Positions 16,715 to 48,120 of a stretch of 64,000 nucleotides of DNA are shown piece by piece. The number at the start of each line of letters is the position of its first letter. Within the stretch, counting starts at the first letter, position 1. Position numbers and translations under genes: made by a program. The notes beneath the pieces were generated by a model. That model ran no database searches, was not told the origin of the DNA, and saw only the letters and a list, made by a program, of their open reading frames with translations. Source of the stretch: Thermoproteota archaeon. GTDB taxonomy: Archaea > Korarchaeota > JAOZGF01 > JAOZFZ01. The stretch covers positions 1 through 64,000 of the forward strand of contig JAOZFT010000001.1 of the NCBI GenBank assembly GCA_027492035.1, written 5' to 3'.

Positions 16715-19174
16715 CTACTTTCCTCTTTGTTGAATTTCCAGTTTACTGTTTCCTCCTTCCTTAAACACTTTTACATGGGTTTGAAACAAGGGGTTATTTT
16801 CAATATCCTCTAAGTGGGAAATAACCAAAACTTTTTCATACTGGTCACTTATTTCTTTCAAGGCTGCCAGAACACTTTCCCTGAATTCTCTGCTTAAAGG
16901 ACCGAAGCCTTCATCTATTATCAGGAACTTCGGCGGATTTATCCCTTTCAGAAGCGACAAAGTATTTATTATCCCTAACCTTAAAGCAAACCCTATAAGT
17001 ACTGTTTCACCCCCTGAATAGGTGGTTATGTCCCTTGCGTAAGTTTGGTCGATAACCAGGATCTTAACATTTCCGTTTTCATCTATTTCTATCTTTAGGT
17101 CTTTGTCGTCAAGAAACTGTGTCAAGTATTTCCTCGAATAAGTTTCAACATGAGAAAGATAAGTTTTTAACAAGTGGAGAGGCAGTCCCTTGTCGTGAAA
17201 AATTTGTCTGTACAGAATTTTGTATGCTTCCTTTTCCTTTTCCAACTTTAAAAACTTTTTTTTCTCTTTCAAAAGCTGCGTTTCAAGTTCATTTATTTTT
17301 TGCATTTCCTTCTGTAAACTGTTTTTCTTCTCTTGCAGAGTTTTTATTTCTCCATATATTTCTTTATTCTTCTCTGTTAACTCTTCCTCCTCCCTCCTTA
17401 TTTTTTCAAGTTCCTCCTTTAAAGTAGACAACTTCTTTTCTTCCCCTCTAACTTTTTCTTCGTCGACCTTTTTTGAAAGGGTTTCTATTGCTTGATTAAG
17501 TCTTTCAATGTTTTTTTGTAAAGCTCTTAATTCGCCTTCTGCTTTGTTTATTTCCTCATTTCTTTTCCGGAAATTGATTAGTTTTTCATTTAATTCGTTT
17601 ATTTCTTGCTTTATCTCTTGAAGAGAGACTTCCTTGTGAAGAAGTTGCCTTTTCAATTCATTTATTTCCGAGACCAGTTTCTCTGTTTCTTCTTTAACCC
17701 TTTTGATTTCCTCTTCTCTGCCTTTAATTTCTTCTTCCTCCTCTTTTAATTTAGTGAATTCGAAACTTATTTTTTCAATTTCTGAAAAACGTTCCTTTAA
17801 CACCTTTAATTCTCTTTTTGATTTTTCCAGTTTATTTTTTAGCACCGCCTCCTCTTTCTTACATTTCTCCATTTCCCTCACAATACCTGTTTTAATTTCT
17901 TCTCCCTTCTCTTTTGGAAGGTGGGAACCGCATAAAGGGCATTTTCTTGTTTCTTCTGATTCTTCAAGCAATTTTAGGTTTTGTTCTAGTTGTAAAACAA
18001 ATCCTCGTAACTCGTTAATTTTTTCTTGAATTCTTTCTTTTTCCTCTTCCTTTTCAGAAATTTTTTCTTTTATTTCCTTCTCTTTCTTTATTTCTTCTTT
18101 TATTCCTTTTATTTTACGTTTAATTGTTTCTAATTTGTTTTTTTCTTTTTCAAAAGTTTCAAGCAATTTCTGGTTGGCTTTCATAATTTCTTCTTTACTT
18201 TTTAATTCAGTAATTGCCCCATACTGTTTATTTAGTTTCTTTTCCCTTTCTTCTAAAGCTTTAATCTCAGTTTTCACTTTTTCTCTTTGTTCTAACACAT
18301 TTTTCAATTCTTTAATTCGTTTTTCCAGTTCATTCCTTTCTTTTTCGTTCTTTTCTAATTGGTTAAGCAGGTTTTTCAAGTTATGAACTTCTGAACTTAG
18401 TTTTTCATATTTAGTTTGTTTATCTAAGACTTCTTCCCTTTTCTTAGCTAATTCCTTTTCAATTTCCTTGATTTCAAACAATTTAGTATGTAGTTTCTGT
18501 TTCAGTTTCTTCATTTCTTCTTCAATTTCACTTTTCTTTCCTATTTCTTCCTCCATTTCTTTTATTTTCTTTTCTTTTTCCTGTAACGTGTTTTGGAGTG
18601 ACTTAAACCTGTCCCCAGCTTCCTCTTTTTCTTTCTTGAAAGATATTCCGAAAACTCTAAGGAATATATCCCTTCTTTCACTTGGTTGAAAATCTTTACT
18701 TATTAGTTCAGCTACTTCTCCTTGTCTCACAATGTTTGTCTGTTTAAAGGATCGGAAATCTAACCCTGTTATTTTCTCTATTTCTTTATCTACTGCTTTG
18801 ACGGAGTCAGCTACCAGTTTCAATCTGCCTGTATCCTTTATTTCGAAAAGCTGAGCTGTTGAAGGTTTATTTTTTATGCTGTAAATCTTTCTAACTACTT
18901 TATACCTTCTCTTGTTTACTTCGAAGTAAAGGTCAACCTTCGTTGCAACTTGGTTTGGAGGTATTAATTCCTTAGCGAAACTTTTGTCAAGTTGGCCGTA
19001 GGCTCTTCCAAACAATGCAAAGGTTACAGCGTCTATGAAGAAGGTTGTTTTACCGGCGCCTGTGGGCCCCTGAATAAAGACAGTTTTACCCACATTTTCT
19101 AAGTTAAATTCCTCCCTTTTAAACGTTGCTAAGTTCTCAACCCCTATTTTTTCAATAAACATCTCATAATTCAT
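16715..19174 (-). CDS. rad50: DNA double-strand break repair ATPase Rad50
   Basis: An 819-residue SMC-like ATPase. The N-terminal lobe has Walker A QGPTGAGKTTF (about residue 36). A very long Lys/Glu-rich coiled coil is broken near residue 410 by CPLC, the zinc hook through which two Rad50 molecules join. The C-terminal lobe has the signature TYSGGETVLIGFALRLG and Walker B FLIIDEGFGPLS. With Mre11 it forms the complex that tethers and opens DNA ends. The start overlaps the mre11 stop by 11 bases. It is the last gene of the nurA-herA-mre11-rad50 cluster. Confidence 0.98.
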   Translation of the reverse strand: MNYEMFIEKIGVENLATFKREEFNLENVGKTVFIQGPTGAGKTTFFIDAVTFALFGRAYGQLDKSFAKELIPPNQVATKVDLYFEVNKRRYKVVRKIYSIKNKPSTAQLFEIKDTGRLKLVADSVKAVDKEIEKITGLDFRSFKQTNIVRQGEVAELISKDFQPSERRDIFLRVFGISFKKEKEEAGDRFKSLQNTLQEKEKKIKEMEEEIGKKSEIEEEMKKLKQKLHTKLFEIKEIEKELAKKREEVLDKQTKYEKLSSEVHNLKNLLNQLEKNEKERNELEKRIKELKNVLEQREKVKTEIKALEEREKKLNKQYGAITELKSKEEIMKANQKLLETFEKEKNKLETIKRKIKGIKEEIKKEKEIKEKISEKEEEKERIQEKINELRGFVLQLEQNLKLLEESEETRKCPLCGSHLPKEKGEEIKTGIVREMEKCKKEEAVLKNKLEKSKRELKVLKERFSEIEKISFEFTKLKEEEEEIKGREEEIKRVKEETEKLVSEINELKRQLLHKEVSLQEIKQEINELNEKLINFRKRNEEINKAEGELRALQKNIERLNQAIETLSKKVDEEKVRGEEKKLSTLKEELEKIRREEEELTEKNKEIYGEIKTLQEKKNSLQKEMQKINELETQLLKEKKKFLKLEKEKEAYKILYRQIFHDKGLPLHLLKTYLSHVETYSRKYLTQFLDDKDLKIEIDENGNVKILVIDQTYARDITTYSGGETVLIGFALRLGIINTLSLLKGINPPKFLIIDEGFGPLSREFRESVLAALKEISDQYEKVLVISHLEDIENNPLFQTHVKVFKEGGNSKLEIQQRGK

Positions 19175-20390
19175 CCCCTACATGCCTAACTTTATCAATT
19201 ATTTCCTTTCCCTTCTTTATCACTAACTCAATCACTTCAGGGTTTGCTTTTCCTGACAGAGTTTTTTTGACATAGTCTTCAAAGGTTACTTCTATTTTCT
19301 CAGGTTCAGGAGAGGACTCTAATTTTTCAGGGGAAAGATATTCCCTTTTAATGAACCAGTAAAAGATGTTTTTCTCCGTCATTGCCTTATTTATTTCTCG
19401 AAGATTAAGCATTTGACCAGGTCCAAGTAAACATTTTAACCTTACAATTGATCCTTCCGTTACTTTTCTTCGACTCATTGTTTGAATTAATGCTTTAGAA
19501 GGATTGATGGAGTTATGTAGTTGAAAGTAACTTCCTTCTCCCTTACTTGGAAGAGTTAGCATCGGTCTACAGTTAAGTTTTTGAAACTTTAAAGCCAATT
19601 CTCCGTTTTGTTCAGTGAGGGAAATGAACCCCTTTTCCTCCTTTTCTTCACTGAAATCAATTCTTTCTACTGAACCAGGATAAACTGTCTTTTCTGACAG
19701 TTTCTGGCAGGCATGTATGTGTCCCATAGCTACATAATCTACATCGGCTTTCTCAAAAATTCCCCTGTTAAGTTTAACATCTTTCATAAACATTATTTTT
19801 TGTTCAGCTCCAGGCCTGGCTCCCTCAACCAAGAAATGTGCAACCACGACTACGTAGTCGGCTTCCCCTTTTTCAAGGTATTGTTTAACCCTTTCCTCAA
19901 TTGTTTTCCTATATTCTCTTTCATCCCTAAACTCAACAGGTGAGACATAAGGCAAAGCTATGAATTTAACTTTCCTATTTCTTTCCCTGTTTTCGAGAGT
20001 TACATAGCCTGATTTCCTGAAAAAGAAAAAATTCGGTGGTTTTGCTTGTTTCAAAGCCTCTAAGTATGTTTTTGTATAAGTTTTTGTTTTTGGTTGGTCG
20101 TGGTTCCCAGCTACAGCTACAGTCTTTACTTTGTTTTCACCTAATGTAGAAATTGTTTCTGCGAAGGCTGACAAGACATATCCTGAAGGCCTTAAGTTGT
20201 GGAAAATGTCGCCGGAAATTATTAAGTAATCAACTTTCTCCCTTATAGCGAAATCCCTTATTCTTTTCAAGTTTGACAAGAAGTCATCTACCCTTGCTTT
20301 TCTTTTCTCCCAATTTAAGAAAGGGGTTTCTAACAGAGTGGCTCCCAAGTGAAGATCAGCCGTGTGAACAATCTTTATGGACAAAGGCAT
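19164..20390 (-). CDS. mre11: DNA double-strand break repair nuclease Mre11
   Basis: A 408-residue metallophosphoesterase. Motifs are TADLHLGA (residue about 10), SGDIFHN, GNHDQP, VVVAHFLVEGA and MGHIHACQ, which bind the two manganese ions. The C-terminal third is the capping and Rad50-binding region. Mre11 is a single-strand endonuclease and 3'-5' exonuclease acting with Rad50, and NurA-HerA then resects the 5' strand. AAGGTGGG directly abuts the ATG at 20390, so the TTG six bases further in (20384) may be the true start; the difference is two residues. Confidence 0.97.
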   Translation of the reverse strand: MPLSIKIVHTADLHLGATLLETPFLNWEKRKARVDDFLSNLKRIRDFAIREKVDYLIISGDIFHNLRPSGYVLSAFAETISTLGENKVKTVAVAGNHDQPKTKTYTKTYLEALKQAKPPNFFFFRKSGYVTLENRERNRKVKFIALPYVSPVEFRDEREYRKTIEERVKQYLEKGEADYVVVVAHFLVEGARPGAEQKIMFMKDVKLNRGIFEKADVDYVAMGHIHACQKLSEKTVYPGSVERIDFSEEKEEKGFISLTEQNGELALKFQKLNCRPMLTLPSKGEGSYFQLHNSINPSKALIQTMSRRKVTEGSIVRLKCLLGPGQMLNLREINKAMTEKNIFYWFIKREYLSPEKLESSPEPEKIEVTFEDYVKKTLSGKANPEVIELVIKKGKEIIDKVRHVGDEL

Positions 20391-20422: not shown

Positions 20423-22102
20423 TTAATAATCTGGTGGTTCAATTTCTTCTTTTCTCCTTCTTTCACTGAACTCTTGTAGACAACTTTTTATCCCTTCTTT
20501 GTAGTTAAGTATTTCTAAAACAGCAGGTATGGTTATTGATTCACCGAAGACAAGCACTTCTTTCCTTTTAAGCCATTCAATTATTGGTTGAAACATTCTT
20601 TGAAACCTTAAACCTCTTGTACAGGCTTGAATGTCTGCTTCATCTGTTAGATTCATGATGAAAGAGTTCCAAAGCATTCCTCTAACGTCTTCATCTATTT
20701 GGGAAGGCCTTTGGTCAATTATGCACAGTACAACTCCTCTCTTTCTCAGCTCCCTCGCTATGTCCCCAAAGGGGGTCATGTAAAAGGTTTTAGGTCCTAA
20801 AAATTTATGAGCCTCCTCCAAAAAAATCACTAACCTATAAAAGGTTTTTTTACCCTTAAGCGACAACTCAACATATTTCTCCCACAATCTTCTAGCTACC
20901 ATGTTCGCTATCAACATATAAGCTATTTTGTTGTCTCCATACCTCCCGAAACTAACAATTACGCTTCTTCTCCCCTTCAAAATTTCATTAATTATTTCTT
21001 CGATTGAATCCTTCCCTTCAGTCCAGTCGATGAAATCCAGTTTCTTAAGTTTCCCTAGACGGGTTTTGCCTGCCTTAAATGATTGGTAGGCACCTATCCC
21101 CAACTTACCCTGTATCTTTGTAGCTATCTCCTCTTCTTCACTCGGGGAAGTTTCAGTTTTTCCACATAAGACCTCAAGCCAATTTTTACCGGTTACCTCC
21201 TGTATTATTCTTTTAAAACTTGTTAAATAAGCTAGGAAGGCAGGTGTTAAACCTAATGTTTCAGAAATTATTTCTATGTCTTCAACACATATTTTTCCAG
21301 GGTTCACCTTTAAAGTTTCCAGGTTCCGAGTTTCAGCTGTTTCTTTGTCAGGTGTTAAAATAAAGAATTGGTCCCTGAACACTTGGCCAACTCCCTTTGC
21401 GTAATCTCTCCCAACTTGATCCTTCAGCATTAAACCGTATTCACTATGCATGTCAAAAATTAAAAGTTTCAGTTTTCCCCCTTCACTTAACGACTTATTC
21501 GTTAAAATAATGAAGAAAGCTAATAAGTTGCCTAGAAAAGTTTTACCAGCTCCGCTTTTGCCAAAGATACCGAAAGATCCTCTAACCAATGTTTCAACGT
21601 TTAAGGGAATATATACCTTCTCCTCTTTCTCTATTAGTGGAAGTTTAGGTTTACCTAGAGGCCAACTGGTTAAATAATTAGGTTTCCCGTAGAAGAGATT
21701 TATTTCTTCCTGGAAAGGATAAATTACTGGTGCACAGTAGTCAGGGATAGAGTCAACTTGCTCCACTTCGCCTCTGTAAACAGCTAAAGGAGCAATATGT
21801 AAAACAGTGGGTAATGAACCACTGCTTCTTAACCCTTTCTCTGTCCTCTCCCTTATTTCAGAGGCCACTCTGTCCTTGTTTGTTTCCTTCCCTATAAAAG
21901 ATTCTAGAACGTTTGACCCCTTAAGTTCAATGTCTGAAACAACACCTAAAAACTTCGTCTCCTTCCTCACTCCCTTAATTAAAACCACAGACCCTACCTT
22001 TATTTCCTCAGCTGAAAAGTCCTTCAAAAGCCTACCTTGCAACCCCTTAGTTAAGTTCCCGCTCACTATCCTTGCAAAAAGGGTTTTAACTTCCCCACTC
22101 AT
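20423..22102 (-). CDS. herA: HerA hexameric DNA translocase
   Basis: About 559 residues. An N-terminal HAS-barrel (residues 1-75, with FARIVSGN and VGSVVLIKGV) precedes a FtsK/HerA-type RecA domain. Walker A is GKSGAGKTFLG near residue 183, and Walker B is VIFLEEAHKF near residue 425. LRKRGV and DQRPSQI follow as sensor and arginine-finger regions. HerA pumps DNA and works with the NurA nuclease to create 3' overhangs. The open frame extends to 22222, but the ATG at 22102 has TTGGAGG eight bases upstream and lies just after the previous gene's stop, so I use it. Confidence 0.96.
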   Translation of the reverse strand: MSGEVKTLFARIVSGNLTKGLQGRLLKDFSAEEIKVGSVVLIKGVRKETKFLGVVSDIELKGSNVLESFIGKETNKDRVASEIRERTEKGLRSSGSLPTVLHIAPLAVYRGEVEQVDSIPDYCAPVIYPFQEEINLFYGKPNYLTSWPLGKPKLPLIEKEEKVYIPLNVETLVRGSFGIFGKSGAGKTFLGNLLAFFIILTNKSLSEGGKLKLLIFDMHSEYGLMLKDQVGRDYAKGVGQVFRDQFFILTPDKETAETRNLETLKVNPGKICVEDIEIISETLGLTPAFLAYLTSFKRIIQEVTGKNWLEVLCGKTETSPSEEEEIATKIQGKLGIGAYQSFKAGKTRLGKLKKLDFIDWTEGKDSIEEIINEILKGRRSVIVSFGRYGDNKIAYMLIANMVARRLWEKYVELSLKGKKTFYRLVIFLEEAHKFLGPKTFYMTPFGDIARELRKRGVVLCIIDQRPSQIDEDVRGMLWNSFIMNLTDEADIQACTRGLRFQRMFQPIIEWLKRKEVLVFGESITIPAVLEILNYKEGIKSCLQEFSERRRKEEIEPPDY

Positions 22103-22130: not shown

Positions 22131-22781
22131 TCACCCAGAAACAATGTTCTCAATTGTTGACAGCACTTCCTGAAGCTTTTCTTCCCCATACCTTTCAGAA
22201 ACAATTTCTGTGATTCTTTCATAAATCTCCATTTTATAACCTAAACCTAATGACTCAGTTAAGTAAGGAAAGAAGGTTTCAAGGAAAGAAGTTACTTCGC
22301 TTGAGTTTAAGGAATTAATTAATAAAGGCAAGTAATTGATTTCAAGTTTTCCATTCCTGAAATGGAACTGTTTCACAAACTCTTTTGAAGGAATATAAGC
22401 TAAGTCATGAATTAAAGGTTTACGTCGCGGCAGCTTCTGGAAAAATGTTCCTTTCTCGAAGTAACCTACTGAAACACAGAAATAAATATCTATAAACCTG
22501 TCTTCTAAATCCGGGTACCTTTGAATTATTTCTTTCCTTGTAGCTTTCAAAGGAGTTGGAACAGAAGGTAAACCAGGTGAAGGAACCATTTCTGTCCCTG
22601 TAACGGCACCTACCACAATAAAGGATTCACAATTAACTACTATGAAGGAACCGTACTCAGGGGTAGTGTTAATTTTGTAGGATTGGACACTAAATGTTTT
22701 ATGGGTTGAAGAAACAACTTCTCCAAAAGCTTTTTGGTTGCCGCTGTACACCTGAACCCAGTCAAACTCGCTACTCTCCAT
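22131..22781 (-). CDS. Uncharacterised HerA-NurA operon protein, possible HAS-barrel
   Basis: A 216-residue protein between nurA and herA. I do not recognise a named family. The first half is beta-rich (FGEVVSSTHKTFSVQSYK, then YGSFIVVNCESFIVVGAVTG), which resembles the HAS-barrel found at the HerA N-terminus: two short strands, a PEYGSFIVV-type strand and a turn containing V-G-x-V. The second half is helical and charged. There is no nuclease or ATPase motif. Because HerA here already has its own barrel, this would be a second, free-standing one. Spacing of 26-28 bases to both neighbours supports one transcript and a role in the same machine. Confidence 0.7.
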   Translation of the reverse strand: MESSEFDWVQVYSGNQKAFGEVVSSTHKTFSVQSYKINTTPEYGSFIVVNCESFIVVGAVTGTEMVPSPGLPSVPTPLKATRKEIIQRYPDLEDRFIDIYFCVSVGYFEKGTFFQKLPRRKPLIHDLAYIPSKEFVKQFHFRNGKLEINYLPLLINSLNSSEVTSFLETFFPYLTESLGLGYKMEIYERITEIVSERYGEEKLQEVLSTIENIVSG

Positions 22782-22807: not shown

Positions 22808-24025
22808 TTAAACTACCCCCTTAATTTTCTTTTCCTGTTTCTTTGAAAAAAGCAACCTCAAATTATATTTTTCATTCAGTAATTTGTTTACGTAACTTAA
22901 AACCCACCGTCTCTCTGCATTTTTTATTAAAGCCTGCTCATGAGCCCTCTCCAACAAGTAAGGGTAACCCCCACCTAAACCAGCCTGTCCAGCTACCACC
23001 GAATAAATTTGTTGGACATTAGCCGCCGCCCAAAGAGGGAACTCAACCCTGAAAACGTTTCTTTCCCCAGCTTTAAAATAAAAACCTGCAACTTCTAAGC
23101 TGTTCTCAGTTACAATCTTGTTCACGACTTTAAAAAGGGAACTTCTCCAGCTGTTACTTAATAAATAATTGAAAAGCAGTTTATCCTCTATTAACAATTT
23201 TTCGCACTCTAATTTCCTTTTTTCTTTCATGCACACGCTGCAAGATTTCTTTTCTTCACAAACAACTGCTCTTATTAAAGAAGCTGAAACAGCTGATGAA
23301 TTTGTGTAGAAAACACCTACAGGTATTATTTTTTTGTTCTTCATTTCTGTCCATGCTTTTTTCATGGCTTCAACAGTTTCCTTCCTTTCTTTTTCAGTTT
23401 TTGAAGCTAAATAGTTAACAGAGAAGCTTTCATCGAATAAAACATAGATTTCACTGCTTAACTCTTCCCTCAACTTGAATAAACTATTTTTTATTGTCTC
23501 TAATTCGCTTTCAACCCTTTTCCTCTGAATATTCCATAAGTAGTTTTCAGTTTCCCCTTCTCCAACAAAGTAAAAATAAGGCTCACTTTTCTCTATATGC
23601 CGCAATTTATCGCCGTAACTTATGAAAGTTAACCCTACATTAATTAAAAGAAAAGGAGGAGAGAAATGGACAGAAGGAGTTATTTCGCTAGTGTCAACAC
23701 CAGCTACACAGTAATTCTGCAAAACTTTTAAAGGCCATTTAACACCTTTCAAGGAGTAATTCTGCATGTCTGGCCTAGACCTGCAGAAAATCTTATTTTC
23801 CAGAAAAATTACGGTTTCACGGAATCTTGCTCTCCAACATGAGGAGTCTTTTTCTAAAACGTTATTTAAGGGTTTAAGATCCTCTACTTCAATTAAGTAG
23901 TTGAAAAGTTCCTGTAAAGAATCCTTTGAAGCTTTAACTTTACTTGCTAAAGAAACAATTCTTTCTAATATAATTTTTTGAACAAGTGGAACATTAAGCA
24001 ATTTAAAAAACCTCACTTTAAACAC
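22808..24025 (-). CDS. nurA: NurA 5'-3' nuclease
   Basis: A 405-residue protein with the NurA RNase H-like nuclease core. VAGVDTSEI (about residue 110) carries the first metal-binding Asp, and YVLFDESF (about residue 198) another acidic site. The C-terminal GGYPYLLERAHEQALI segment is typical, where family members have a conserved YP...A/D...A motif. NurA degrades the 5' strand during end resection together with HerA. A CxxC-rich stretch (CEEKKSCSVCMKEKRKLEC, around residue 255) could bind a metal; I am not aware of it as a standard NurA feature. It is the first gene of the minus-strand repair cluster. Confidence 0.92.
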   Translation of the reverse strand: MFKVRFFKLLNVPLVQKIILERIVSLASKVKASKDSLQELFNYLIEVEDLKPLNNVLEKDSSCWRARFRETVIFLENKIFCRSRPDMQNYSLKGVKWPLKVLQNYCVAGVDTSEITPSVHFSPPFLLINVGLTFISYGDKLRHIEKSEPYFYFVGEGETENYLWNIQRKRVESELETIKNSLFKLREELSSEIYVLFDESFSVNYLASKTEKERKETVEAMKKAWTEMKNKKIIPVGVFYTNSSAVSASLIRAVVCEEKKSCSVCMKEKRKLECEKLLIEDKLLFNYLLSNSWRSSLFKVVNKIVTENSLEVAGFYFKAGERNVFRVEFPLWAAANVQQIYSVVAGQAGLGGGYPYLLERAHEQALIKNAERRWVLSYVNKLLNEKYNLRLLFSKKQEKKIKGVV

Positions 24026-33908: not shown

Positions 33909-35057
33909 GTGAAAATTAAACCTGGAAAATATTTCCTTCAAGGAAACATAGCCTTAGCTGAAGCAGCTATAAAAGCAGGTTGCCTGTTCTATGCAGGTTA
34001 CCCAATAACTCCCGCAAGTGAAATAATGGAACATATGGCTAAAAGGTTACCAGAGGAGAAAGGAGTGTTCATTCAAATGGAGGATGAAATAGCTTCAATA
34101 GCCGCTTGCATAGGGGCAAGCTGGGCTGGGGTTAAAGCAATGACAGCGACTTCAGGTCCAGGTTTTAGTTTAATGCAAGAAAACATAGGGTTAGCTGTGA
34201 TGACAGAAACTCCCTTAGTAATTGTGGATGTGCAAAGAACAGGGCCTAGCACAGGACAAGCAACAAAAGCGGCACAGGGAGATATTATGCAAACTAGGTG
34301 GGGGAGACATGGAGACCAGGAAGTGATTGTTTTAGCTCCAAACTCTGTTCAAGAAATGTTTAACTTAACAATTAAAGCTTTTAATTTAACTGAAAAATAT
34401 AGAACCCCGGTTATTGTGTTAGCTGACGAAGCAATTGCACATTTACATGAAAACTTGACAGTGAAGGAGGGTATAGAAGTATTTAATCGTGAGAAACCTA
34501 GAAAAAAAGAAAAAAGGTTTTTTGGGTGTGAAAAAAAGGATTGTGTCCCGCCGATGCCTTCAGTAGGCGAAGGATTTGATGTTTTAGTTACTGGTTCAAG
34601 CCATGACGAATACGGCGTAAGGTTTACAGCAAACCCTCAAGTTCATGAAAAACTCGTGAATAGACTTGTGAACAAAATAAGGTTGAGAAGGAAAGAAATA
34701 ATTGAAGCTGAAACATATATGGTTGATGAGTGTGAAATAGGGGTTGTAAGTATAGGTTGCGTCTCAAGAGCTGTTTATGAAGCTGTTGAATTAGCTGAAA
34801 AAGAAGGGTTTAGAGTAGGTTTCGTAAGACCTAAAACTGTTTGGCCTTTCCCTGAAGAACAAGTGGAGAAACTAGCCTCCAATGCAAACTTCATCTTGGT
34901 GCCTGAATTAAACACGGGGCAATTGATTAAAGAAGTTGAAAGGGTAACCGTAACCAAGAAAAAGGAGAAAGTGATACCTTTCAACAAAATAGGTGGGGGA
35001 AGAATGATTTCACCCACTGAAATATTGAAAGAAATAAAGAGGTTAAGCAGAAACTGA
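33909..35057 (+). CDS. korA: 2-oxoacid:ferredoxin oxidoreductase alpha subunit (first set)
   Basis: A 382-residue subunit with the pyrimidine and transketolase-like domains. GNIALAEAAIKAGCLFYAGYPITPASEI at the N-terminus, MEDEIASIAACIGASWAG and TATSGPGFSLM are the conserved KorA/PorA motifs. With beta, gamma and delta subunits encoded just downstream it oxidises a 2-oxoacid with CoA, reducing ferredoxin; 2-oxoglutarate is the likeliest substrate. GTG start with AGGAGGT seven bases upstream. A vapBC pair separates it from korB. Confidence 0.93.
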   Translation: MKIKPGKYFLQGNIALAEAAIKAGCLFYAGYPITPASEIMEHMAKRLPEEKGVFIQMEDEIASIAACIGASWAGVKAMTATSGPGFSLMQENIGLAVMTETPLVIVDVQRTGPSTGQATKAAQGDIMQTRWGRHGDQEVIVLAPNSVQEMFNLTIKAFNLTEKYRTPVIVLADEAIAHLHENLTVKEGIEVFNREKPRKKEKRFFGCEKKDCVPPMPSVGEGFDVLVTGSSHDEYGVRFTANPQVHEKLVNRLVNKIRLRRKEIIEAETYMVDECEIGVVSIGCVSRAVYEAVELAEKEGFRVGFVRPKTVWPFPEEQVEKLASNANFILVPELNTGQLIKEVERVTVTKKKEKVIPFNKIGGGRMISPTEILKEIKRLSRN

Positions 35058-35186
35058 AAAAGAAAAGTGAAGAGAACCCTTAACAACCTTATAAACTAAG
35101 TTAAAGCAGCATCTATAACAACTCCTTGAATTAAATAGTAACTTTAAATACTGTAAATATTGTTTTGTTATATAGGCTGAAGTACT

Positions 35187-35363
35187 ATGTCATTAACTAA
35201 AGTAACTCGAAACTATCAGGTGACTCTTCCTGCAGAAGTTAGGAGGACACTTGGCATCAAAGAAGGGGATTGCTTAGAGGTAAAAGTAGAAGATGGAAAC
35301 ATCGTTACGAGTAAATTGGAGAGAAAAAGGAAAAGGATTAAACTTGGAAAAAACTTACGTTAG
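35187..35363 (+). CDS. vapB: AbrB-type VapB antitoxin with frameshifted C-terminus
   Basis: ATG at 35187 gives a 58-residue product with a complete AbrB/SpoVT DNA-binding fold (VTLPAEVRRTLGIKEGDCLEV). After KLGK the frame ends in NLR-stop, but the next frame continues as KLTLEEIEKEIERGFTECMQ to a stop at 35411-35413 that overlaps the vapC ATG, which is the normal VapB C-terminus and gene junction. The break lies in a run of six As at 35348-35353; one more A would restore the frame. The lost part is the toxin-binding tail, so either neutralisation fails or slippage restores it. Confidence 0.75.
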   Translation: MSLTKVTRNYQVTLPAEVRRTLGIKEGDCLEVKVEDGNIVTSKLERKRKRIKLGKNLR

Positions 35364-35400
35364 AGGAGATTGAAAAAGAAATTGAAAGAGGGTTTACTGA

Positions 35401-35820
35401 ATGTATGCAGTGATAGACACCAACATTTTAATCTATGACACCTTTGAAAACTCAGAAAAACATGAACCCGCTGAAAAACTACTGAATTCTTTGAGTAAGT
35501 GGCTGATTCCAGTTATGCCACTTTGCGAGTATATTTGGTTCTTTAAAAGGCAGAAGCTTGACACTTACGAAGTTAAAGGCCTTGTTGAAGGCTACATATT
35601 AGATCCTCACTGCAAAATTCATGTAGACAACGGAACTCGCTTAAAAAACGCTTTCGAAACTGTAGCATCTCAAAAACTCCCCTTAACACAGATCAAGGAC
35701 ATGGTGATACTTTCACATGCGAAACTTAGCAAAGCACCCTGGCAATCTTTGATTGGAAACTTAGGAGAAAAGCCATGGAACATAGGGTTAGAACAATACT
35801 TTAAGATGAAGCAAAACTAA
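35401..35820 (+). CDS. vapC: PIN-domain toxin VapC
   Basis: A 139-residue PIN-domain ribonuclease. Acidic residues in AVIDTNILIYD (Asp6), LCEYIWF (Glu near 44) and QIKDMVILSHAK (Asp near 100) match the metal-binding triad. VapC toxins cut tRNA or rRNA unless held by VapB. The pair lies inside the 2-oxoacid oxidoreductase gene cluster, between the alpha and beta subunits, and on the same strand. The frame is intact. Confidence 0.88.
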   Translation: MYAVIDTNILIYDTFENSEKHEPAEKLLNSLSKWLIPVMPLCEYIWFFKRQKLDTYEVKGLVEGYILDPHCKIHVDNGTRLKNAFETVASQKLPLTQIKDMVILSHAKLSKAPWQSLIGNLGEKPWNIGLEQYFKMKQN

Positions 35821-35852
35821 GGTTTTTGACAACTGGAAAAGGAAATGTGGAG

Positions 35853-36686
35853 ATGAAGGGGAGATATTACTTAAGGAAGTTTTTAAGGGAGGAGCATTTA
35901 CCCACAAAATTCTGTCCAGGCTGCGGATTAGGCATTGTAATGAACCTATTCCTTAAAGCAGTTGATGAATCAGGGTATAAAGAGTTAAGTGGAAAGTTTG
36001 TTTTTGTTTCAGGAATTGGGTGTTCAGCCTGGATTCCGTCTCCATATTTTAAAGCGGACTCAATCCATGTTACACATGGACGAAGCATCCCTGTTGCAAC
36101 AGGTATAAAACTTGCTAAACCTGAATTGAAAGTTGTTGTTTTCGGTGGAGACGGAGACTTAGCTGGGATAGGTTTACATCACTTAATTTTTGCAGCACAT
36201 AGAAATGTTGAATTAACTGTTATAATGTGTAACAACATGACTTACGCCATGACAGGTGGACAAGCTGCACCCACAACTCCTTATGGAGTAAAAACGGTTA
36301 CCACCCCTTACGGAAAAATATCGAAAGAACTGGATATTTCAAAAATATTGGTGGATGCAGGTTCATCCTATGTTGCCAGGTGGACAACAGCCCACCCTAT
36401 CCAGTTAAAGAAATCCTTCAAAAAGGCTTTAGAAATAAACGGTTTCTCATTTGTAGAAGTTTATTCACAGTGTCCTACCCGTTTTGGGAAAGAACTAAAC
36501 ATGTTTAAACCTGTAGAAATGATGGAGTGGTTTAAAAGAAACAGTAAAGTTTTGAAGAAGGGGGAGACAATTGAAAATGGAGAAATGAAACTTGTTTTGG
36601 GTGAATTTGTCGAAAGAAAAAGACATGGATACTGTGAACTTTACTACAGAAATATTTTAGGGGAGGAGTTGGAAAAATGGAGATAA
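35853..36686 (+). CDS. korB: 2-oxoacid:ferredoxin oxidoreductase beta subunit (first set)
   Basis: About 277 residues; this subunit binds thiamine diphosphate. FCPGCGLGIVMN near the N-terminus holds a CxxC, and GGDGDLAGIGLHHL followed by CNNMTYAMTGGQ is the GDGD...NN ThDP-magnesium motif. The open frame reaches back to a TTG at 35826, but the ATG at 35853 with AAAGGA about nine bases before it gives the usual N-terminus. It overlaps korC by ten bases. It lies directly after vapC, 32 bases away. Confidence 0.93.
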   Translation: MKGRYYLRKFLREEHLPTKFCPGCGLGIVMNLFLKAVDESGYKELSGKFVFVSGIGCSAWIPSPYFKADSIHVTHGRSIPVATGIKLAKPELKVVVFGGDGDLAGIGLHHLIFAAHRNVELTVIMCNNMTYAMTGGQAAPTTPYGVKTVTTPYGKISKELDISKILVDAGSSYVARWTTAHPIQLKKSFKKALEINGFSFVEVYSQCPTRFGKELNMFKPVEMMEWFKRNSKVLKKGETIENGEMKLVLGEFVERKRHGYCELYYRNILGEELEKWR

Positions 36687-37249
36687 AGGATAAAATCCAA
36701 ATTGTAATTGAAGGAGTTGGAGGGCAAGGGATAATTTTTGCAGGTTATGTTTTAGCTTATTCAGCCTTCAAGTCAGGCTACTTTGTTGCCCAGTCAAAGG
36801 AATACGGTTCAGAATCGAGGGGCACAAGAGTAAAAAGTAAAGTAGTTGTTTCTAAAAAGGAAGTAAAGCATCCCTTCGTTGAACAATGCAACGTGTTAGC
36901 GGCGTTAACGGATCCCTCCATCGAAACCCTTAAAACTTTAACTCCAGAATCAAAAATCTTCTTAAACTCTTCCTTGATAAAGAAACAGTTACTTACAAAA
37001 TTTTCTGAAAAGACGGAAATTTATTTGATTCCAGCCACTGAACTTTCAAACAAAAAATTCTTAACCCCCCTATTTGCAAACATTATTTTGCTAGGTTACC
37101 TAATTAAAGGAACTGGTTTTTTAAGGTTTGAAACAGTGAAAAATGTTTTAAGAGAGGAGATAGGTGGGACTAGAAGTGAAGAAAACATTTCAGCCCTTGA
37201 AACCGGTTACTTTTATGAAGAAGAAAAGTTTGAGAGAGTTAAGGAATGA
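36677..37249 (+). CDS. korC: 2-oxoacid:ferredoxin oxidoreductase gamma subunit (first set)
   Basis: A 190-residue gamma subunit. GVGGQGIIFAGYVLAYSAF near the N-terminus is the diagnostic GxGGQG motif, and YGSESRGTRVKSKVV follows. It completes the core of the complex with korA, korB and korD. It overlaps korB by ten bases and korD by four (ATGA), so all three are probably translated together. Confidence 0.92.
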   Translation: MEIKDKIQIVIEGVGGQGIIFAGYVLAYSAFKSGYFVAQSKEYGSESRGTRVKSKVVVSKKEVKHPFVEQCNVLAALTDPSIETLKTLTPESKIFLNSSLIKKQLLTKFSEKTEIYLIPATELSNKKFLTPLFANIILLGYLIKGTGFLRFETVKNVLREEIGGTRSEENISALETGYFYEEEKFERVKE

Positions 37250-45403: not shown

Positions 45404-45991
45404 TCAGTGCTTCTTTATTTTTTCGCCTATTTTATAACCTACATTGAAAGCTTTAAGGTTTAACTCTTTGAAATCAACGGGGGTATTCTTTATTATTGCC
45501 TTTTCAACTGCTTCTTTATTTATTAAAGGGAAGAGTTTTGTGAAGACACCTAGAAGTAAAGTGTTAGCTACAAGTTTGTTTCCGAGTTCTTCAGCCAATT
45601 TAGTTGCATGAACAGGAACTTTTTCCACGTCACTCCTTTCTCCTTGATTAATTTGGACAAGGTCAGGGTCGTAAATTAGCACTCCGCCTTTCTTCAGTTT
45701 TGGCAAATACTTTTCATAGGCGAGTTTAGATAGAGCAATTAAAACATCTGACTCTGCTACTTTGACGAAATTTATTTCTTTCTCTGAAATGATTACTTCT
45801 GAGCTGGTGACTCCTCCACGTGAAGCTGGGCCGTATGATTGAGTTTGAACAGCTTCCTTCCCTCCATAAAGTGATGCAGCCATTCCTAGGATGATTCCCA
45901 TTTTCACTATTCCTTGACCGCCTAAGCCTGCAATTCTTATTCTAAATTCACTGACCCCCTTAGTGGTTCCTCCACTGTTTCGTTTATTCAT
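45404..45991 (-). CDS. 2-oxoacid:ferredoxin oxidoreductase gamma subunit (second set)
   Basis: About 195 residues with RIAGLGGQGIVKMGIILG, the GxGGQG motif of gamma subunits, and YGPASRGGVTSSEVIIS. The frame extends to a TTG at 46027, but ATG at 45991 has GGGGA eight bases upstream. It is last in a delta-alpha-beta-gamma cluster, the korDABC order also found in methanogens. Its partner set duplicates the one at 33.9-37.5 kb. Confidence 0.92.
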   Translation of the reverse strand: MNKRNSGGTTKGVSEFRIRIAGLGGQGIVKMGIILGMAASLYGGKEAVQTQSYGPASRGGVTSSEVIISEKEINFVKVAESDVLIALSKLAYEKYLPKLKKGGVLIYDPDLVQINQGERSDVEKVPVHATKLAEELGNKLVANTLLLGVFTKLFPLINKEAVEKAIIKNTPVDFKELNLKAFNVGYKIGEKIKKH

Positions 45992-46097
45992 TTTTAACAG
46001 TCCCCGAACAACTATACCTCTCTTCAACTTTCTTTACCATTTTTCAAAATAGGGAAAAATTTAACATTTCTCACGGAATAAACAGTATAACCAAGTT

Positions 46098-46961
46098 TTA
46101 TTCTTTGTGATAGGTCCGTTCCACTTTACCAATCTTTCCCCAAATTAGGTCAGTGTATTCAGGCTTCTCTTTATCCACAAACTCCCCCACAACTATTATG
46201 TTTTGAGTAATTTCAGCCTTTATGGGGTCTATCTTATTTTGGATTATTGACGCTTGTTTCAGCCACTTCATCATCTCAACAGCGTTCATGTGTTTAGTAT
46301 GTCTTCCATAGATTTCTGGACAGGGGGAAATGACCTCAATGAAACTGAACCCCTTTTTTAAAAGGGCCTTCTTTATGGAGTCAACTAAGTTTCTGACATG
46401 GTAGGCTGTCCACCGGGCAACATAAGTTGCTCCTGAACCTGCAGCTAAATAAACAGCATTAAACGGGTGTTCAACGTTTCCGTAGGGAGAAGTTGTTGTT
46501 ACAGCGTTTAAAGGAGTTGTGGGGCCACATTGACCCCCAGTCATTCCATAATTGAAATTGTTTGAGAGTATAACTGTTAATTCAATGTTTCTTCTCGCCG
46601 CCTGAATTAAATGGTTTGCACCTATGGCTAAAAGGTCTCCGTCTCCACCGAAAACAACAACTTTCAATTCAGGTTTAGCAAGTTTAACACCTAAAGCAAA
46701 AGGTATTGCCCTTCCGTGGGTGGTGTGGAACGCGTCAGCGTTTATGTAGCCTGAAATCCTACCCATGCAACCTATACCCGAAACAACGACTAAGTTGTCC
46801 AAGTTAAAGTGCAGTTCCTTCAATGCCTGAAGGAAGCAGTTAAGGATTACTCCGTTTCCGCACCCTGGGCACCAGATGTGGGGAATCATCCCTTTTCTTA
46901 AGTAACTGTCCAAAGGATGTTTCCTTTCATGGTTAGTTAAATGTTTAATTGATTCTTTCAT
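46098..46961 (-). CDS. 2-oxoacid:ferredoxin oxidoreductase beta subunit (second set)
   Basis: A 287-residue ThDP-binding subunit. WCPGCGNGVILN holds the CxxC, and GGDGDLLAIGANHL with SNNFNYGMTGGQ is the ThDP-magnesium motif. Compared with the first set it has a distinct N-terminal NHERKHPLDSYLRKG segment, a pattern frequent in 2-oxoglutarate enzymes. ATG at 46961 has GGGGGA five bases upstream and follows the alpha gene by ten bases. Confidence 0.92.
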   Translation of the reverse strand: MKESIKHLTNHERKHPLDSYLRKGMIPHIWCPGCGNGVILNCFLQALKELHFNLDNLVVVSGIGCMGRISGYINADAFHTTHGRAIPFALGVKLAKPELKVVVFGGDGDLLAIGANHLIQAARRNIELTVILSNNFNYGMTGGQCGPTTPLNAVTTTSPYGNVEHPFNAVYLAAGSGATYVARWTAYHVRNLVDSIKKALLKKGFSFIEVISPCPEIYGRHTKHMNAVEMMKWLKQASIIQNKIDPIKAEITQNIIVVGEFVDKEKPEYTDLIWGKIGKVERTYHKE

Positions 46962-46971
46962 TTTTTCCCCC

Positions 46972-48120
46972 TTAACTGGTGTTTTTCTCTATTATTTTCA
47001 GTATTTCGTTAGGGGTAGGTGGCTCTTCACCAACTTTAGGGAATGAAATTATTGGTGCGGTTGAAGAAGCTGCCTTCACCTCCCTAATTATTTGTCCTTG
47101 ATTCATTTCTGGTACAATTATCAGTTTTGCTTCAGAAACAATTTTCGCCACCTCCTCCTCTGGAAAAGGCCAAACTGTTATTAATCTTAACAGTCCCACT
47201 TTTAATCCTTTTTCACGGCCTATTTTAACTGTTTCTTTGGCAGCTCTTGCAGGTGTACCGAAAGCTATTATTACAGTTTCAGCGTCGTCTAAAAAGTATT
47301 TTTCAACTGTTATTATTTCTTTTTTATTTTTCCTTATTTTTTCACAGAGTCTACTGGTTAATTCCCTTTGTGTTTTGGCTGACATGTCTGGGTGACCTGA
47401 TTCATCGTGTGTTAAGCCTGTGGCGTAGAATCTGTACCCTTCACCAAAACAAGACATTGGTGGAACAAGATCTTCATCCGGTTTAAAAGGTAAGTACTCT
47501 TCCGGCGGAACTTTCGGCTTCTTCCTATCCACTGTTTTTATTTTTTCAGGTTCCGGAATGACTAGTTTTTCTCTTGTGTGCGCAATTATTTCATCGGCTA
47601 AAATGAAACATGGAACCCTGAATTTCTCCGCTAGGTTGAATGCTTTAATTGTTAAATCAAACATTTCCTGAACAGAGTAAGGAGCTAAAGTTATTATTTC
47701 GTAGTCTCCATGAGCAGCCCACCTGACCTGCAAAACATCTTGTTGACTTGGTTTCGTAGGTTGCCCTGTACTTGGGCCTCCTCTCATCATGTCAGCTATT
47801 ACACAAGGGGTTTCTGTCATTATAGCTAACCCTATGCTTTCAACCATTAAGCTTAATCCTGGACCTGAAGTCGCTGTCATTGCTTTAACCCCAGCCCAGC
47901 TTGCCCCTATGACTGACATCAGGGACGAAATTTCATCTTCAAGCTGAATAAATATTCCCCCAACTTGAGGCATTCTCAAAGCCATCCTTTCAGCTATGCT
48001 GCTTGCAGGGGTTATGGGGTAAGCGGAGTAGAACCTACAACCTGCAGCTATTGCCCCTTCAGCTAAAGCGAAGTTTCCTTGGACAAAGTATTCCCCTGTT
48101 AAAACATCTGGTTTTTTCAA
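46972..48120 (-). CDS. 2-oxoacid:ferredoxin oxidoreductase alpha subunit (second set)
   Basis: A 382-residue alpha subunit, exactly the length of its paralogue in the first set. [26 protein letters not shown] and [16 protein letters not shown] are the family motifs; [18 protein letters not shown] differs from the first set's GPSTGQATKAAQGDIMQ. TTG start overlaps the delta stop (TTGA). The two sets probably use different 2-oxoacids, but the substrates cannot be read from the sequence alone. Confidence 0.92.

Follow-up and report, generated by a model that had tools for sequence, protein, structure and literature searches.

The window analyzed here, the first 64,000 nucleotides of contig JAOZFT010000001.1 of a Thermoproteota archaeon, carries an unnamed gene, here called X, between the genes for the NurA nuclease and the HerA ATPase, and the question is what a third protein contributes at this position. 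HerA-NurA is the presumed end-resection engine of archaea, and its making of 3' overhangs is disputed. A first-pass annotation made from the sequence alone had placed an unnamed 216-residue product inside a NurA-HerA-Mre11-Rad50 cluster. The gene is a real open reading frame (ATG start, 216 codons, minus strand) and its neighbors were identified by Pfam or by relatives. The order of the genes on the minus strand is NurA, X, HerA, Mre11, and Rad50, as follows.

22808 to 24025, minus strand: NurA nuclease, directly upstream of X (Pfam PF09376, E 2.8e-12)
22131 to 22781, minus strand: gene X, a free-standing HAS-barrel protein of 216 aa without ATPase domain
20423 to 22102, minus strand: HerA ATPase, 559 aa, directly downstream of X (Pfam DUF87, E 7.6e-19)
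19164 to 20390, minus strand: Mre11 (Pfam Metallophos, E 2.3e-16, and a match to the corresponding gene of relatives)
16715 to 19174, minus strand: Rad50 (position and matches to the corresponding genes of relatives)

The spacing of under 30 bases to both neighbors was confirmed, X being separated from nurA by 26 bp and from herA, which starts at 22102, by 28 bp. A longer HerA frame from 22222, which would overlap X, was dropped in favor of the ATG at 22102 (MSGEVKTLF...), because only the latter fits the N termini of HerA homologs. The X protein matched none of the Pfam, NCBIfam, and PADLOC models, and nothing was found among PDB sequences with a seven-member X profile; the gene is unnamed in databases, and public records label it a hypothetical protein. 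It is more than a chance open reading frame, since homologs occur in several phyla and dN/dS is 0.02 to 0.11 in unsaturated close pairs. Elsewhere in the window, two sets of genes resembling 2-oxoacid:ferredoxin oxidoreductases lie on opposite strands (33909 to 37249 and 45404 to 48120).

The fold of X was analyzed in an AlphaFold2 model built from a seven-sequence alignment (pLDDT 88.2, pTM 0.85). The best 50 PDB matches of the model in Foldseek were all HerA-type proteins (best E 4.5e-7), with moderate TM-scores of 0.35 to 0.45 computed over the whole query, tail included. The N-terminal domain of the window HerA, modeled likewise (pLDDT 74), matched the same PDB structures and showed the same order of strands and helices. 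The earlier guess of a HAS-barrel was thus upheld, the model being anything but an unrelated fold, and HerA here does have a barrel of its own, as had been supposed. Three parts of X were delimited.

22332 to 22730, minus strand: HAS-barrel module, residues 18 to 150 (models; 131 columns in hhalign)
22497 to 22544, minus strand: alpha1 segment, residues 80 to 95 (model; family-wide Pro90-Asp91)
22134 to 22331, minus strand: C-terminal helical tail, residues 151 to 216, in place of the ATPase domain

The barrel module consists of four strands, helix alpha1, strands beta5 to beta7, and helix alpha3, and corresponds to the pre-ATPase region of HerA. Four helices form the tail in the model (151 to 156, 160 to 178, 180 to 197, and 200 to 215). 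Family members are about 150 to 250 aa long, and no Walker A pattern was present in any of 51 of them. X is therefore not a HerA, the RecA-like ATPase domain with its Walker A motif being absent.

Descent was examined by profile comparison, with a 129-aa HerA fragment (L086) excluded from the X family profile. A 44-member X profile aligned with 13 HerA N-terminal domains over 131 columns at a probability of 95.8% (hhalign, E 6.8e-9), and the controls, comprising the reversed HerA profile, 30 column shuffles, the HerA ATPase half, NurA, Mre11, and Rad50, gave a best E of 0.11. When 394 archaeal genomes were searched blind with a 26-member X profile, the top matches were nine true members (E < 1e-33); below them came 19 weak matches (E 1e-6 to 4e-4), 18 of which were HerA N termini and one a short fragment. 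From the profile comparison and the blind search together, it follows that X and the HerA N-terminal domain have a common origin. By sequence comparison, X appears as a diverged paralog of that domain, with the motor absent and a helical tail in its stead. The short beta patterns shared with HerA, on which the first-pass annotation had drawn, were real and highly significant once the whole family and the structure were considered, but they were not significant from this locus alone, as seven X sequences against seven HerAs gave one in-register barrel match (E 0.0067, probability 5.7%). The threshold of Pfam PF09378 was not reached; the window X gave no match and the best member scanned scored 20.1 bits (E 0.00068) against a cutoff of 25.2. 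By Pfam's own threshold X thus falls outside PF09378, its HAS-barrel fold and descent notwithstanding. The window HerA itself fell below the Pfam HAS-barrel cutoff (E 0.022).

Some 50 archaeal loci were found to carry X, among them loci of Baldrarchaeota, Culexarchaeota, and Methanomethylicota and others on haloarchaeal plasmids. Among 61 genomes searched, two others carried it, one in the arrangement NurA-X-HerA and one as X-HerA-Mre11-Rad50. A first, three-member profile gave weak matches (E 0.007 to 0.2), among which G224 was genuine, and stepwise extension of the profile revealed numerous further X-bearing genomes from several archaeal families. Carriers named by the genome scan include Baldrarchaeota, Culexmicrobium profundum, two Thermoproteota archaea, and a member of the Methanomethylicota; in Baldrarchaeum yapensis all five genes occur in the order seen in the window, NurA-X-HerA-Mre11-Rad50. 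Family f12, which we take to be Archaeoglobaceae (Ferroglobus, Geoglobus), commonly has a shorter X of about 160 aa; a profile-profile comparison (154 columns, E 9.5e-21) unites this form with the 216-aa one in a single protein family. Within the phylum of the window, X was absent from the sampled genomes of family f3, although NurA was present in 27 of 29 genomes of the phylum. Some f3 relatives (L031, L032, L039, L043, and L046) carry a nurA-herA pair without X, head-to-head with a gene resembling acyl-CoA synthetase/CoA-binding proteins.

Selection on X was strong and purifying, with dN/dS of 0.019 to 0.108 in unsaturated close pairs and the lowest values where X stands alone. Because X is related to the HerA N-terminal domain yet diverged from it, it might be taken for a functionless relic of a partial herA duplication; this is very improbable and was rejected on the selection data and on retention, as X is kept even where the operon is broken up and persists in distant archaeal groups.

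Absence of the gene from the locus in all relatives, which would have spoken against the first-pass reading, was not seen. NurA lies directly upstream of X on the same strand in 36 of 47 loci, HerA directly downstream in 34, and both in 27; X adjoins NurA and/or HerA in 43 of the 47 loci, to which annotated haloarchaeal plasmids can be added. The remaining four loci, with neither neighbor, all come from one genus. Stop/start overlaps of 4 bp with nurA and herA are frequent among X loci, suggesting translational coupling. In 12 genomes checked that lack the X-herA link, nurA and herA were kept in all, and in a genus where X, nurA, and herA are all dispersed, all three were retained. In genus g291 (L101, L102, L104, and L107), nurA and herA are located away from X, which lies near an FtsZ/tubulin-like gene; purifying selection on X is nevertheless very strong there (dN/dS about 0.02).

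The HerAs encoded at X-bearing loci formed two groups in a 73-member HerA tree, and the label "has X" required 3 changes compared to a mean of 24.7 after shuffling. Second HerA paralogs of X-bearing genomes, including that of the window genome (contig C21), lay outside these groups and were without X. Two more NurA-type genes are present in the window genome (C21:102539-103114 and C31:66375-66740), and the C21 copy lies beside the second HerA, again with no X. The partnership of X with NurA-HerA is well supported. Since X accompanies a particular type of HerA across distant archaea, it is probably a missing third part of that NurA-HerA machine. Our preferred reading, which we consider reasonably probable, is that X is a stand-alone HAS-barrel and a dedicated, noncatalytic third component of NurA-HerA in two archaeal HerA clades, with a plausible role, as the first-pass annotation had suggested, as an adaptor between NurA and HerA.

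The same linkage could be read in terms of regulation, X acting as a HAS-barrel decoy that competes with the HerA barrels for NurA, or for neighbors in the ring, thereby holding the nuclease inactive, or the ring open, for as long as no DNA end is present. The domain of X is the same as the NurA-binding part of HerA, and in eight loci X has stayed beside nurA with herA located apart, both in keeping with competition. The frequent 4-bp overlaps with both neighbors suggest instead a matched dosage of all three proteins, as for subunits, and we regard a decoy as rather unlikely.

As a third subunit, X may sit at the junction of the HerA HAS barrels with NurA, on the exit side of the ring, and act there as a noncatalytic adaptor or collar. 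In a report on Thermococcus kodakarensis (PMC12977600), the HAS domains of HerA form a crown that binds NurA, and alpha1 of this domain with its preceding loop contacts NurA through Trp76, Leu77, Asp91, and Tyr95; a Deinococcus radiodurans study (PMC9960219) likewise describes NurA bound through the HerA HAS barrel. The alpha1 segment of X, between beta4 and beta5, stands in place of the NurA-contacting helix and loop of T. kodakarensis HerA, and docking of X on NurA through alpha1 is proposed. At the end of this segment, Pro90 is conserved in 97% and Asp91 in 79% of the family, which ranks both among its most conserved positions, and the conserved residues of the segment differ from the NurA-contacting residues of Thermococcus HerA. 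Other conserved marks are Gly44, Phe139-His140, Gly144, and Tyr150, and the strongest signature (His140, Gly144, and Tyr150) lies outside alpha1. On HerA, X could dock barrel-to-barrel, and from there it might adjust how the six-fold HerA motor holds, loads, or gates the two-fold NurA nuclease.

A further step, which we advance only tentatively, is that two large archaeal groups use a three-protein end-processing machine in which the free HAS-barrel makes a collar of its own or replaces part of the HerA crown. X would in that case sit between the six-fold motor and the NurA dimer as a separate adaptor matching motor to nuclease, one absent from the two-protein model systems, a placement that we likewise put forward as possible. 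Such a subunit is no general requirement, as Thermococcus and Deinococcus HerA-NurA needs no X-like protein for activity.

The tail raises the alternative that the barrel only plugs X into the HerA crown and that the helices link NurA-HerA to Mre11-Rad50 or to a single-strand-binding protein. The tail is a separate helical part, and Mre11 or Rad50 is also present in many X clusters; on the other hand, the tail is the least conserved part of X after the N-terminal extension, and neither Mre11 nor Rad50 is adjacent in some X loci. Such a linker is unlikely, and more so than a decoy.

Compared to the HAS-barrel domain of HerA (PF09378; T. kodakarensis 9x1l/9x1m and Sulfolobus solfataricus 4d2i), X shares the fold, the order of elements, and the operon, and its profile is significantly homologous for most of the stretch that precedes the ATPase. 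It differs in being free-standing, without ATPase or helix-bundle domain, in its own helical C-terminal tail, and in its signature of Pro-Asp after alpha1 and Phe-His, Gly, and Tyr after alpha3. The NurA-HerA complexes of T. kodakarensis, with two NurA on six HerA, and of D. radiodurans rest on the same nurA-herA gene pair, often accompanied by mre11-rad50. These described complexes consist of two proteins, whereas X loci encode a third, HAS-barrel-only protein between them. The HerA-Sir2 and HerA-DUF4297 anti-phage complexes, in which HerA rings join partner enzymes, were among the best structural matches of the X model; the matching chains are full-length HerAs with a built-in barrel, unlike the free-standing X. 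In the passages and papers covered, which did not include the 2004 HerA superfamily survey by Iyer and co-workers, no mention of a conserved free-standing HAS-barrel partner was found. X is built from known kinds, the HAS barrel and NurA-HerA, and whether it has been described before is uncertain. If X, made of the same domain by which HerA grips NurA, is a conserved third subunit in many archaea, reconstitutions that omit it would fall short of the complete machine of those lineages, and the choice of strand or the loading step could hinge on X. A gene called hypothetical protein in public records would gain a testable identity.

No relatives of X were found in viral contigs and phage records. 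In haloarchaeal plasmids, X, annotated as a hypothetical protein, belongs to a metallophosphoesterase-SMC-NurA-X-HerA cassette, which resembles a mobile island for end processing, possibly with a defensive role. A DEAD/DEAH helicase or PLD-family gene precedes the cassettes of three plasmid loci (L196, L198, and L200), the last of which is on the Natrinema zhouii plasmid NZ_CP084885.1 (176829 to 190958); Natrinema adds a TerB-N protein and an ATP-binding protein.
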